From contig CAIOCZ010000032.1 of NCBI GenBank assembly GCA_903856805.1, forward strand, positions 1 to 34,381: DNA of 34,381 bases, written 5' to 3'. A program made the position numbers and the translations under genes. Shown piece by piece: positions 17,799-21,691 of the stretch. A model generated the notes under the pieces. That model saw only the letters and a list, made by a program, of their open reading frames with translations. It made no database searches and was not told the origin of the DNA. Numbering within the stretch: the first letter of the stretch is position 1; each line of letters begins with the position of its first letter. The stretch comes from an uncultured cyanobacterium (GTDB lineage Bacteria > Cyanobacteriota > Cyanobacteriia > PCC-6307 > Cyanobiaceae).

Positions 17799-18254
17799 AT
17801 GGCCCAGTTGCCGCGGATCCTCCTGCTCTGTCTCACCTTCGGCGGGATCAGCGCCGGCTTCTGGCCCCTGGTACGGCCGGCACCGGCCGCAGCGGGGCTG
17901 CTCGAGCCGGTGTTGTTACTGATGCGCCCCCAGCTGGAAAACCGCCTGGCACGACTGTGCGTCGATACCGCCTCCGGAGGGCGCCCCGAACTGGAGGCCA
18001 GTCTGCAGGACCCCTGTCGCAAGCTGGCGGTTCCCACCAGCAAGTGCCTGATCGAAGAAACGGACCGCAGCGGCCGCGGACTTGACGTGGTGACCGAGCT
18101 GGTAAGCGGCCGCTTCGGGGACGCCAGTGAAGGGGTGGTGAAACGCTGTCTGGCGAAAATGTTCGGCCTGCCGGCCGACAGCCTCAAGTCCGTGCCGCTC
18201 CGGGAGCTTGGCCAACGCTTCGGCACCTGGGGGTTGCCGGCCGAGCGGCCTTAA
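17799..18254 (+). CDS. Small secreted four-cysteine protein of unknown function
   Basis: A 151-residue protein with an N-terminal signal peptide (MAQLPRILLLCLTFGGISAGF, cleavage probably near PAPAAAG). The mature part contains four cysteines in short contexts RLCVD, DPCRK, SKCLIE and KRCLAKMFGLP, which could form two disulfides in the lumen or periplasm. No named family was recognised; it is likely a picocyanobacterial conserved hypothetical. Its TAA and the TAA of the convergent RibD-like gene share the palindrome TTAA at 18251-18254. The VKOR-thioredoxin protein of this window would be a plausible oxidant, but that is speculation. Confidence 0.75.
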   Translation: MAQLPRILLLCLTFGGISAGFWPLVRPAPAAAGLLEPVLLLMRPQLENRLARLCVDTASGGRPELEASLQDPCRKLAVPTSKCLIEETDRSGRGLDVVTELVSGRFGDASEGVVKRCLAKMFGLPADSLKSVPLRELGQRFGTWGLPAERP

Positions 18255-18910
18255 CGCCGCCGCCGGCCGTAACGCACCAGCAGCTCCTCCCCCTCCAGGG
18301 CGCGATGCTCCAGCAGCTGCCAATCCCCCGGCAGGCCGCAGCCCCCCGCCGCCGTGACCGGCAACCAGGTGTGTGCCCCCCCCAGCAGCTGCGGGCAGAA
18401 GGTGAGCTGCAATTCATCCACGAGACCCTGGGCCAGCAGATCGGCCGCCAGCATGGCCCCGCCCAACACAGCCAACCGCTCCAGCCCCGCTGCCGCCAGG
18501 AGGGCTAGGGCCGCCGACCAGGTCGAAAGGGGAATCTGGCGCTCAAATCCCCCGGCCGCGGCCCTTGACCCGGGGGCGGGCAGCAACTCGGTTGAGGGTT
18601 GCAACAACCACCGCCGCACCGGTTGATGAAAAAAGGGCAGGACCTCCGGAAGCAGGCCGCTCCGACTCACCGCAATGGCCACGGGTTGGGGCTCCCGCCC
18701 AGCCCGACGACGGTGCGCCAGCAGGTCGTCCCCATGAATCAGACAGGTGCTGCCGTGGCGACGCAAGGTTTCGGCGCCAATCAGACAACCATCAGCCCAG
18801 GCCAAAGCCTCCTCCAGCACCCTGCGATCGCCCTGACCGCCCAGCTGCGCGGCACCACCGGCGGCGGGGGCCAGCCGACCATCCAGGCTGACCGCCAGCA
18901 CCAACCTCAA
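18251..18910 (-). CDS. RibD C-terminal/dihydrofolate-reductase-like pyrimidine reductase
   Basis: A protein of about 219 residues of the RibD_C fold, which in riboflavin synthesis reduces 5-amino-6-ribosylamino-pyrimidinone phosphate with NADPH. The N-terminal strand VLAVSLDGRLAP, the GDRRVLEEALAWADGCLIGAETLRRHGS segment and GLERLAVLGGAMLAADLLAQGLVDELQLTFCPQLLGG are diagnostic. No deaminase domain is fused. Good ATG starts are lacking: TTG at 18910 keeps the first strand, while GTG at 18901 has a GAGG upstream and is an alternative. It follows the PTPS-like gene by 25 bases, making a pterin/flavin-type pair. Stop shared with the convergent gene through TTAA. Confidence 0.82.
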   Translation of the reverse strand: MRLVLAVSLDGRLAPAAGGAAQLGGQGDRRVLEEALAWADGCLIGAETLRRHGSTCLIHGDDLLAHRRRAGREPQPVAIAVSRSGLLPEVLPFFHQPVRRWLLQPSTELLPAPGSRAAAGGFERQIPLSTWSAALALLAAAGLERLAVLGGAMLAADLLAQGLVDELQLTFCPQLLGGAHTWLPVTAAGGCGLPGDWQLLEHRALEGEELLVRYGRRRR

Positions 18911-18935: not shown

Positions 18936-19889
18936 TCAGACCGCGACAAGCGTCTCAAGGGTCGCTGGCAGAACCCCAAGCAGAGGAGTTTCCGCAAACA
19001 CCTCGGCGGCATTGTTGGGGCTTTCCTGCAGCCGCACCTTGTGCAAGCGGGCGCCCGTGGCCGCAATCGGGCCCATCAGCAGATCAGCGATGTGCAAGGC
19101 GATGTTCTCGGCGGTGGGCACGCAGGCGGCGAAGTGGGCTACGTCCTTGTTGAGAAAGGTGTGGTCGAACGGTTCGACCACCAGATCATTCACCAACTGC
19201 TGCAAAACCGCCAGATCGCAGACCATGCCGGTCCTGGCGTCGATGGGGCCCCGCACCGTGACATCCAGGAGGTAGTTGTGACCATGACCATGGGGCCGGG
19301 CACACTTGCCGTAGATGGCCTCATTCTCAGCCTGGCTGAGTTCCGGCCGGGCCAGGCGATGGGCGGCGGCGAAGTGGGTACGGAGGGAGAGGAAGGCTTC
19401 CATGGGATTGCGGTTGGGATCGATCAGGACGTCGGCCCAGAGGTTGGGGGTTTCATAAAGCCGCAGACCCATCAGGGGCAGATGGGCGGCTAGGCGGTCT
19501 CGAATCGCCAGTAACAGCGCCTCGGTGGTGGGCAAGCGTCCGTGGGGAGTCGCCAGATCGAAGTCCGGCCAGGCCTCATTCAAAAATCGGAAATCGAGGG
19601 GCTCGATGACCTGCTCGCGGATAGCGTGCTTCACCTCAGACAGGTTGAGCACCATGCCATCGGCGTCCAACGCCCCCCCCATGGCCACAATCAACTCGTA
19701 GTTGTGGCCATGGCCAGGAGCCCGGCTGCAGGCGCCGAAGCGGGTCCGGTTCTGCTCAGCGCTCAGCTCCGGCAACCAATAGAGATGACTGGCACTGAAG
19801 CAAGCCCTTCGGGTGATCACACAGGGGCGGCCGCGGCCGTGGGGAGCAGCGGCAGAGGGGCGGGCGGCGACGGTTGTAGGAGCTGTCAT
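18936..19889 (-). CDS. Tandem 6-pyruvoyl-tetrahydropterin/6-carboxytetrahydropterin synthase-like protein
   Basis: A 317-residue protein with two PTPS/QueD domains in one chain (about 25-155 and 165-300). Each has zinc ligands: H35 with H60 and H62 in the first, H177 with H202 and H204 in the second. Each has the catalytic-type cysteine (C54 in FGACSRAPGHGH; C196 in YGKCARPHGHGH) and the pterin-binding Glu (E146 in ETPN; E289 in ESPN). The second domain keeps the Asp-His pair (FDHTFLN, D242-H243), but the first reads LDFRFLN with F100 in place of His. Members make queuosine precursors or pterins from dihydroneopterin triphosphate. The ATG at 19889 is preferred over an upstream frame without family likeness. 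It is probably co-transcribed with the RibD-like gene. Confidence 0.9.
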   Translation of the reverse strand: MTAPTTVAARPSAAAPHGRGRPCVITRRACFSASHLYWLPELSAEQNRTRFGACSRAPGHGHNYELIVAMGGALDADGMVLNLSEVKHAIREQVIEPLDFRFLNEAWPDFDLATPHGRLPTTEALLLAIRDRLAAHLPLMGLRLYETPNLWADVLIDPNRNPMEAFLSLRTHFAAAHRLARPELSQAENEAIYGKCARPHGHGHNYLLDVTVRGPIDARTGMVCDLAVLQQLVNDLVVEPFDHTFLNKDVAHFAACVPTAENIALHIADLLMGPIAATGARLHKVRLQESPNNAAEVFAETPLLGVLPATLETLVAV

Positions 19890-19994: not shown

Positions 19995-20645
19995 ATGGCT
20001 GATTCCACCCAGCTCCCTCCACCCTCCCACCGTGATCTGGCCCGGCGGCTGCAGGGGTTGAATCTCTATCTGGTGGGAATGATGGGGGCGGGCAAGAGCG
20101 CCACCGGGCGCCCTCTTGCCGAAGCGCTTGGCTATCGCTTTGTGGATGCCGACGCGGTGATCAGCGCGGCCGCCGGCCGCTCAATTCCGGAGATCTTCGC
20201 GACTGACGGCGAAGCGGGCTTCCGCCAGTTGGAAACGGCGGTGCTGAATCAACTGGCCCACTGGCATTCGCTGGTAGTCGCCACCGGGGGCGGGGCAGTG
20301 ACCCAACCGCAGAACTGGGGCCACCTGCACCAGGGCGTGGTGGTGTGGCTGGATGCGCCGGAGCCGGTGCTGCTGGCGCGGCTGCGGGCCGACAGCACCG
20401 CCCGCCCCCTGCTGGACAGCGGGGATCCCGAAGCCCGGCTACGGACCCTGCTCCGGGAGCGACGTCCCCTCTATGCCCAGGCGGATCTGCGCATCGACCA
20501 GGAGCTGCGGCCGGAGGGACCGCAGGCCGTGGCGGCGCAGGTGCTGGCCGAGCTGCCCACGATTCTCAAGGCCCGCGCCAGTGCTCCCACCCAGCCCGTG
20601 AGCCTGGTGGACGCCGATGGACGCCACCACCCCTCCCTCAACTGA
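19995..20645 (+). CDS. aroK: Shikimate kinase
   Basis: A 216-residue P-loop enzyme that phosphorylates shikimate at O3 in the aromatic amino acid pathway. The Walker A motif GMMGAGKSATG is at 28-38, the shikimate-binding aspartates in FVDADAVI at 49-56, FRQLE at 76-80 and the ATGGGAV loop at 96-102. RPLL with a following lid Arg (LLRERRPLYAQAD) completes the family pattern. It has an N-terminal extension of about 20 residues and a C-terminal tail of about 25, somewhat longer than E. coli AroK. It is divergent from the tandem PTPS gene and convergent with the CRR7-like gene. Confidence 0.96.
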   Translation: MADSTQLPPPSHRDLARRLQGLNLYLVGMMGAGKSATGRPLAEALGYRFVDADAVISAAAGRSIPEIFATDGEAGFRQLETAVLNQLAHWHSLVVATGGGAVTQPQNWGHLHQGVVVWLDAPEPVLLARLRADSTARPLLDSGDPEARLRTLLRERRPLYAQADLRIDQELRPEGPQAVAAQVLAELPTILKARASAPTQPVSLVDADGRHHPSLN

Positions 20646-20666
20646 GGCGTTTCCCGCCAGGCGCCC

Positions 20667-20927
20667 TCACTGGGGAGGCTCCAACCGCACGGCGAACCAC
20701 TGGATCTCCAAACCGGGCGTCAGCTCAAGGGCGCAGGCCGTGGCCAGCAACCGTTCGGCCCGCAACTCCGCGCTGGCCAGGGAGGCCAGATCAGCCGGTG
20801 GCTCCCCCAGACACTCCAGGTGGACCACCAGCCAGGCGAGGGTTTCGGCTGCGGTGAGGATCTGCTCGCAGCGTCCGGGCTCCAACACCACGTAGTGATC
20901 GAGCTCCCGAATCAGGGGATCGGACAT
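20667..20927 (-). CDS. crr7: CRR7-like (chlororespiratory reduction 7) NDH-1 factor
   Basis: An 86-residue soluble protein: MSDPLIRELDHYVVLEPGRCEQIL, then RAERLLATACALELTPGLEIQWFAVRLEPPQ. The YVVLEPG start and the QWFAVRLE end are typical of the CRR7 family, which in plants is needed for assembly of the chloroplast NDH complex and occurs throughout cyanobacteria. The open frame runs far upstream, but only this last part is family-like; the ATG at 20927 is the natural start. It is 44 bases downstream of the GST gene on the same strand. A role in cyanobacterial NDH-1 is inferred from plants. Confidence 0.85.
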   Translation of the reverse strand: MSDPLIRELDHYVVLEPGRCEQILTAAETLAWLVVHLECLGEPPADLASLASAELRAERLLATACALELTPGLEIQWFAVRLEPPQ

Positions 20928-20971
20928 GGAGACCGCACGGCTTCCCCCCATCCTGGCGATGGTGCGGGGCC

Positions 20972-21691
20972 TTAGCCCCGTCCAGCCTCGGCCAGGATCC
21001 GATCCCGCCAGCTGAACAACGGCGCGAGCCCGGGGTGGTCGGCGAGGCCAGCCACCCCACGCCCCGCCAGGGGAGCCCCGGCGGTGGCAGGAAACTGCAA
21101 CAGGGTCAGCTGGGCCGCCACGGCCAGGTCGGCCAGGGACAGCGCCCCCCCCTCCAGATAGGGCTGGGCCGCCACCAGGACGGCCAGTTGATCCAGAGTG
21201 CGGCGCAACTGACTGGCCTGGGCCGGACGGAACAGATCCCGCAGCGTTTCCGTGGCGGGGCTGAGCAGGCCGGACGGAAGAGCGCTGACCAGGGTCCGCA
21301 GGGGCGCCGGCGCCGCCTCCGGCAATAGCGCGGTGCGCAACACCGGATCGGCGGCCGCGGCCTGCAGCAGGGCCTGACGGCATCCGGCCGCCAGGGCGGA
21401 GTCGGCCCAATCCTCCAACAACAACACCCGGGCCCGGGACAGGGGGTCGGACGGCAGCAAGGGCGGCGTGGGATGGCGCTCCTCGAGATAGAGGGCAATG
21501 GCGGTGGAATCCGCCACCACGTCGCCGCCCTCCACCAACACCGGCACCTGCCGCTGGCCGGACAGCCGGAACAGCTCCAGCTGGCCCACCCCCGGCACCA
21601 CCTCCACCAGGGTCACCTCCAAGCCCTTGAAGGCCAGCATCAAGCGCACCTTCTCGCAAAAGGCGGAGTGTCTGAACTGATGCAGTTCCAT
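20972..21691 (-). CDS. Glutathione S-transferase family protein
   Basis: A 239-residue protein with an N-terminal thioredoxin-like domain and a C-terminal all-helical domain. Cys12 in HSAFCEKVRLML lies at the usual catalytic position. QVPVL (48-52, cis-Pro50) and DSTAI (61-65) form the glutathione-binding site, followed by ALYLEERHP. The Cys-type active site suggests thiol-transfer or dehydroascorbate/omega-like chemistry, rather than classic Ser/Tyr conjugation, but the substrate is unknown. The ATG is in divergent position to DUF751, with 101 bases between them. Confidence 0.9.
   Translation of the reverse strand: MELHQFRHSAFCEKVRLMLAFKGLEVTLVEVVPGVGQLELFRLSGQRQVPVLVEGGDVVADSTAIALYLEERHPTPPLLPSDPLSRARVLLLEDWADSALAAGCRQALLQAAAADPVLRTALLPEAAPAPLRTLVSALPSGLLSPATETLRDLFRPAQASQLRRTLDQLAVLVAAQPYLEGGALSLADLAVAAQLTLLQFPATAGAPLAGRGVAGLADHPGLAPLFSWRDRILAEAGRG

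Follow-up and report, generated by a model that had tools for sequence, protein, structure and literature searches.

The double PTPS gene and its neighbours

The window, by which we mean the whole 34,381-nucleotide stretch of contig C32 from an uncultured cyanobacterium, carries on its minus strand a gene for a 317-residue protein in which Pfam recognizes two PTPS domains (187.1 bits, cut-off 22.4). Nothing except PTPS was returned by the Pfam scan of this protein at E ≤ 0.001, so no uricase match. An alternative in-frame GTG upstream of the ATG would extend the product to 364 residues; on the plus strand of the same interval, reading is broken by stops. The features discussed here are as follows.

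18936..19889, minus strand: double-domain gene of predicted PTPS-II type, 317 residues from the ATG (ORF and Pfam)
19425..19820, minus strand: N-half PTPS domain, residues 24-155 (position derived from the reading frame)
19590..19595, minus strand: codons of D99-F100, at the position of rat Asp88-His89 (alignment)
18993..19394, minus strand: C-half PTPS domain, residues 166-299 (alignment and residue check)
19161..19166, minus strand: codons of D242-H243, the catalytic Asp-His of the C-half (alignment)
18251..18910, minus strand: RibD_C-like reductase ORF directly downstream of the PTPS gene (Pfam; predicted start)
C41:39331-39726, minus strand: second PTPS-family gene of the same genome (L002), reading CRFVHGYSRSF
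C112:19545-20237 and 20442-20972: SDR gene directly before folE in the same genome, on contig C112 and not beside the double PTPS gene

The motif C-x5-HGH is present in both halves. The N-half keeps the zinc ligands His35, His60 and His62 together with Cys54, Glu123 and Glu146, and has Phe100, preceded by Asp99, in place of the catalytic His. The C-half site is complete, with His177, Cys196, His202, His204, Asp242, His243, Glu261 and Glu289, which we take to be His23, Cys42, His48, His50, Asp88, His89, Glu107 and Glu133 of the rat enzyme, in agreement with the spacing of the alignment. The original prediction had described three zinc histidines, the cysteine and the pterin-binding Glu in both halves, a Phe where the catalytic His is expected in the first, and an intact Asp-His pair in the second. 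A residue check confirmed the shared ligands, and D242-H243 fall on the Asp-His of rat PTPS (1b66) in a pairwise alignment. Across an alignment of 211 domains, F100 occupies the same column as the His of rat PTPS and of the C-half, and no other His shifts into the catalytic place of the N-half.

For the RibD_C-like ORF we predict a start at 18910, where the frame has its first TTG past the PTPS stop; the same frame runs on into the PTPS gene. Among loci with flank, this neighbour adjoins PTPS in 29/32 and 66/79 picocyanobacterial loci, in 0/30 other loci of the class and in 0/24 outside it; another 62 loci end too close to the gene to be judged, and in several cases one genome contributes overlapping loci. 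Its product could be a pterin reductase. As a general partner of PTPS the RibD_C-like gene is ruled out, having been seen beside PTPS in picocyanobacteria only. Adjoining it is an ORF of 151 residues (17799-18254, plus strand) with no Pfam or NCBIfam match.

The N-half site within the class and beyond it

Relatives at E ≤ 1e-10 were found in 177 of 386 sampled genomes of the phylum; by kinship, these comprise 174 of the 186 genomes of the class and three genomes outside it. The fetched loci contain 204 ORFs, which come to 190 distinct proteins once 14 with identical cores are set aside: 174 doubles, 12 triples and four single-domain proteins. The doubles are a picocyanobacteria-rich set that includes one from outside the class (L136) and one cut by a contig end (L120). 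A metagenome bin titled Bifidobacterium breve (L035) holds a PTPS 83% identical to ours; the label is probably wrong, or the bin contains picocyanobacterial contamination.

The catalytic His is absent from the N-half of all 174 distinct doubles, where Phe (143), Tyr (24), Asn (3), Gly (3) or Cys (1) takes its place, so that chance or sequencing error can be ruled out as the source of F100. The prediction had proposed comparing this residue across cyanobacteria, and the comparison supports it: Phe or Tyr stands in most N-halves and His in none, and the 70 picocyanobacterial rows have Phe in 69 and Tyr in one. The C-half pattern is complete in 174/174 doubles, its Cys and zinc His being invariant.

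Other parts of the N-half site are kept to differing degrees. Its Cys is missing from 28 of the 174 doubles (G 12, N 6, T 4, A 4, S 2). Cys54 is present in 70/70 picocyanobacterial rows; in 68 rows spread broadly over the class the zinc His are kept at 94-96%, Glu123 at 100%, Glu146 at 96% and the Cys at 60% (41/68). The N-half Cys is not fixed outside the picocyanobacteria. Within these 68 rows it has been lost from 8 of 38 with Phe at the F100 position, 12 of 23 with Tyr and 7 of 7 with another residue, a raw association on which we make no claim: Cys loss (27/68) and Phe change (30/68) correspond to 10 and 9 changes on the tree, and with just two usable independent pairs there is no power. 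Erosion goes furthest in family f9, where all six genomes (L122, L124, L127, L226, L227, L228) have an N-half without the three zinc ligands, the Cys, the His and the last Glu, fused to a C-half that is still complete. For the 409 of 630 picocyanobacterial pairs that pass a saturation filter, which are not independent of one another, median dN/dS is 0.19 in the N-half and 0.11 in the C-half; the N-half thus remains under purifying selection.

The 12 distinct proteins with three PTPS domains, of about 430 residues (432 in L123), all belong to family f7 (L121, L123, L125, L126, L128-L135). In all 12 the first domain carries Phe and lacks one or more zinc ligands, and the second and third are complete. 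In the six proteins read, the second domain has a shorter C-x3-HGH loop and ends like an N-half (LWADY-like). The second and third domains of four triples placed in a tree group together, as duplication of a C-half would give.

Outside the class, a match occurs in 17 of 18 genomes of one order, and an adjacent pair in two genomes of another class. We read the domains in 18 genomes, 16 of that order and the two of the other class, leaving out one genome of the order (G402) whose match ends at a contig edge. Thirteen of the 18 encode the two domains as adjacent genes and five as a fusion; in L229 the two genes overlap as ATGA. The upstream, or N-type, domain has Phe in 14/18 and His in 4/18; its Cys is gone in 11/18, and the zinc His and both Glu are present in 18/18. 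The downstream, or C-type, domain is complete in 18/18. Since four N-type domains have a His, its loss is not essential to the pair.

A tree of 91 domains, built on only 134 columns, with bootstrap not fully settled and one long row (L204) as root, unites the N-halves, the upstream genes and the first domains of the triples (98/97). The cyanobacterial C-halves and the second and third domains of the triples form another branch (99/93), and the downstream genes stand apart as a third group (94/89). Because the N-halves group with the upstream genes of distant members of the phylum, the adjacent gene pair looks older than the cyanobacterial fusion. A supported common group of downstream genes and cyanobacterial C-halves was not recovered in the 91-domain tree, and for that reason we claim a single old origin for the N-type alone; a separate origin of the C-half, or exchange between lineages, is possible. 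The four His-bearing N-type domains group together (97/89), and in that lineage the His may have been either kept or regained. For one half the prediction offered a structural role, a regulatory one or a different reaction; its suggestion that the protein is a pseudo-heteromer in one chain is strengthened by the 13 split pairs, by the grouping of N-halves with upstream genes and by a downstream gene that is always complete. Judged from these sequences, the inactive-looking N-half is real, class-wide in our sample, old and graded.

The pairs outside the class also bring a genomic context. In 14 of the 17 genomes of the one order, folE2 precedes the pair on the same strand at a distance of 33 to 246 nt; in the remaining three it is on another contig. 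A tblastn search of the 18 genomes shows an SDR gene following the pair in the same orientation, 23 to 132 nt away, in 10 of them, including both of the other class, and finds none beside the pair in the other eight; the search places one beside the pair in L231 and none beside the pair in L233. The order in L229 is folE2, Phe-type PTPS, His-type PTPS, SDR, and L231, of the other class, has a lyase gene upstream of the pair, not folE2. Cyclohydrolase, PTPS pair and reductase together make up, by gene content, a predicted tetrahydrobiopterin (BH4) operon, a gene set leading from GTP to BH4. The SDR on contig C112 of our own genome passes NCBI's PRK07454 model (345.9 bits, cut-off 234); that model is the best for two of three operon SDRs scanned and the second for the third, all below the cut-off. 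The C112 SDR and the operon SDRs of the sister lineages are candidates for a cyanobacterial sepiapterin reductase.

Structure models and the arrangement of the sites

AlphaFold2 models were made of the 317-residue protein (pLDDT 86.7, pTM 0.82) and of a Prochlorococcus relative (pLDDT 90.3, pTM 0.84). Structural comparison of the first model gives Z 18.2 between its C-half and human PTPS, and Z 15.8 between its N-half and a Pseudomonas PTPS homologue; for the second model, Z is 18.8 between either half and animal PTPS. The whole chain matches urate oxidase in both models (Z 13.0 over 239 residues at 4.2 Å in the first, Z 13.0 over 222 residues at 4.2 Å in the second) as well as GTP cyclohydrolase IB (Z 12.3 over 213 residues at 4.3 Å, and Z 11.8 in the second model). 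The models give moderate evidence for a urate-oxidase-like arrangement of the two halves, and no more than that because superposition on urate oxidase by Foldseek is poor (TM 0.29-0.35, rmsd 9 to 13 Å) and the two models have most alignment rows in common; the arrangement rests on the second aligner. The domain ends are 5 residues apart in 138 of the 183 double ORFs and 9 residues apart in the 317-residue protein. A hairpin would thus connect the closing strand of the N-half with the opening strand of the C-half, and since it would be too short to reach another ring, N and C should lie side by side in one barrel.

We think it probable that the protein is a bimodular PTPS-II for BH4, in which a catalytic C-half and a pseudo-catalytic N-half partner sit side by side in a T-fold barrel. 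It would convert dihydroneopterin triphosphate to 6-pyruvoyl-tetrahydropterin, for BH4 and BH4 glycosides. The C-half would supply the working sites, Cys196 being activated by the Asp-His of another C-half through an assumed C:C contact. The N-half, which we infer from its residues to be inactive, would act as a pseudo-catalytic partner that the complex requires in order to assemble; it may still bind zinc and pterin. In the oligomer, N and C domains would probably alternate within a T-fold barrel, unlike the trimer-based hexamer of animal PTPS.

The geometry of the catalytic residues bears on this model. In animal PTPS the Cys of one subunit works with the Asp-His of another. The title of a 1995 study by Burgisser describes the triad as intersubunit. 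If the Asp-His partner lay in the same ring, a strict N-C-N-C order would pair the Cys of the C-half with the Phe of the N-half, and a full triad could come only from the N-half Cys and the C-half His. The N-half Cys (in f9, the zinc ligands too) has been lost while the Cys and His of the C-half are invariant in our sample, and we therefore consider three ways out: the C-halves may meet across rings, the ring may not alternate strictly, or the C site may work without the His. We favour the first.

One could instead accept the strict ring and suppose a composite site, made of the zinc, Cys54 and Glu of the N-half and Asp242-His243 of the C-half, with Phe100 marking the switched-off site. We consider this unlikely. 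It agrees with the intersubunit triad of the animal enzyme, with the side-by-side placement of the halves in the models and with a Cys54 present in every picocyanobacterial row, but it would let the C-half Cys drift, when that Cys and the zinc His are invariant in 174 doubles, and it needs an N-half Cys that is gone from 27 of the 68 broad rows and from 11 of the 18 N-type domains outside the class, as well as zinc ligands that are gone from 6/6 f9 genomes.

A separate activity of the N-half, for instance aldolase- or isomerase-like chemistry on a pterin that relies on zinc and Glu and dispenses with the His, is improbable in our estimation. No consistent acid or base takes the place of the missing Cys, the 28 replacements being those listed above, and the f9 N-halves persist despite the loss of most of the site. 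On the other side, the zinc His and both Glu of the N-half are mostly conserved even where the Cys is absent, and the PTPS of Plasmodium is described as having changed its reaction through a Cys-to-Glu change (PMC2229834).

The name QueD, finally, comes from a model. TIGR03367, the NCBIfam equivalog for QueD, is passed by the double protein (109.1 against 89.25 bits, over two stretches); the two single-domain PTPS proteins of L229 score 58.2 and 59.2, below the cut-off. QueC is encoded in the same genome, on contig C34 and not beside the gene in the window; queC is a common, though not an obligatory, neighbour of queD. The genome's other PTPS-family protein, from contig C41, is an odd one, having Tyr in place of the usual third zinc His and scoring 45.1 bits against the same 89.25; its oddity favours QueD for the double protein, yet the existence of this second gene counts against it, and the C41 protein may itself be the organism's QueD. 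QueD typically has a short C-x3-HGH motif and serves a pathway different from that of BH4. Because both halves read C-x5-HGH, the best PDB relatives of the double protein are animal PTPS, and relatives of the pair sit by folE2 and SDR, we hold it very improbable that the protein is QueD (6-carboxy-tetrahydropterin synthase) for queuosine. From the "PTPS/QueD" of the original prediction the PTPS part stands; the QueD part probably does not, and the folE2 and SDR context of the relatives narrows the identity to PTPS-II. The model-based name is probably wrong for this protein.

The bimodular PTPS-II reading can be carried further, tentatively and with considerable doubt on our part. An ancient two-subunit BH4 enzyme, whose duplicated pseudo-subunit had given up catalysis and retained a zinc and pterin site, might have become a single chain in cyanobacteria, forming a urate-oxidase-like barrel in which live and dead domains alternate; the dead site might be a pterin sensor or holding site, and the lineages successive stages of its decay. 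Pterin glycosides are made at high levels by cyanobacteria, and their role is described as still not fully understood (PMC13259868, PMC3546692). The series of forms, running from two complete domains through loss of His, of Cys and of zinc, with a triple form as well, looks like a natural record of an enzyme half becoming a pseudoenzyme within a complex, and it offers a way to test how a heteromeric T-fold enzyme assembles.

Comparison with known T-fold enzymes

The zinc triad, C-x5-HGH motif, Asp-His and Glu of rat and human PTPS (1b66, 1gtq, 3i2b) are as in the C-half, at 102-104 bits; these animal enzymes have one domain per chain, whereas the double protein has two. According to PMC7546909, PTPS is built from six identical monomers. 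E. coli QueD (4ntk), a 119-residue chain, has the PTPS fold in common with the double PTPS (Z 14.7). Urate oxidase and GTP cyclohydrolase IB carry tandem T-folds in one chain, as modelled for the double PTPS; with only 5-11% identity between their rows and the double PTPS, the likeness is one of domain arrangement only.

Our protein has what would mark a PTPS-II: two PTPS domains in one chain and, in at least one of them, three zinc His, Cys, Asp-His and Glu, a set the C-half has in full and the N-half has without the His. The link to a GTP cyclohydrolase and a reductase is found in the relatives outside the class. The literature searched, outside which most subscription journals lie, yielded no account of the inactive half of the double PTPS, of its split-gene relatives or of the triples; the double enzyme itself is already known. 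In the work of Kong and colleagues from 2006 (FEBS Lett 580:4900), the active enzyme, PTPS-II, is reportedly bimodular; the title mentions single or dual domain structure. Synechococcus PCC 7942 is described as having two PTPS homologues, PTPS-I being dispensable for BH4 and PTPS-II active as a PTPS in vitro (PMC5041015, citing Kong 2006). We liken the double protein to this PTPS-II by description only, as likewise a PTPS of the BH4 pathway in a cyanobacterium.
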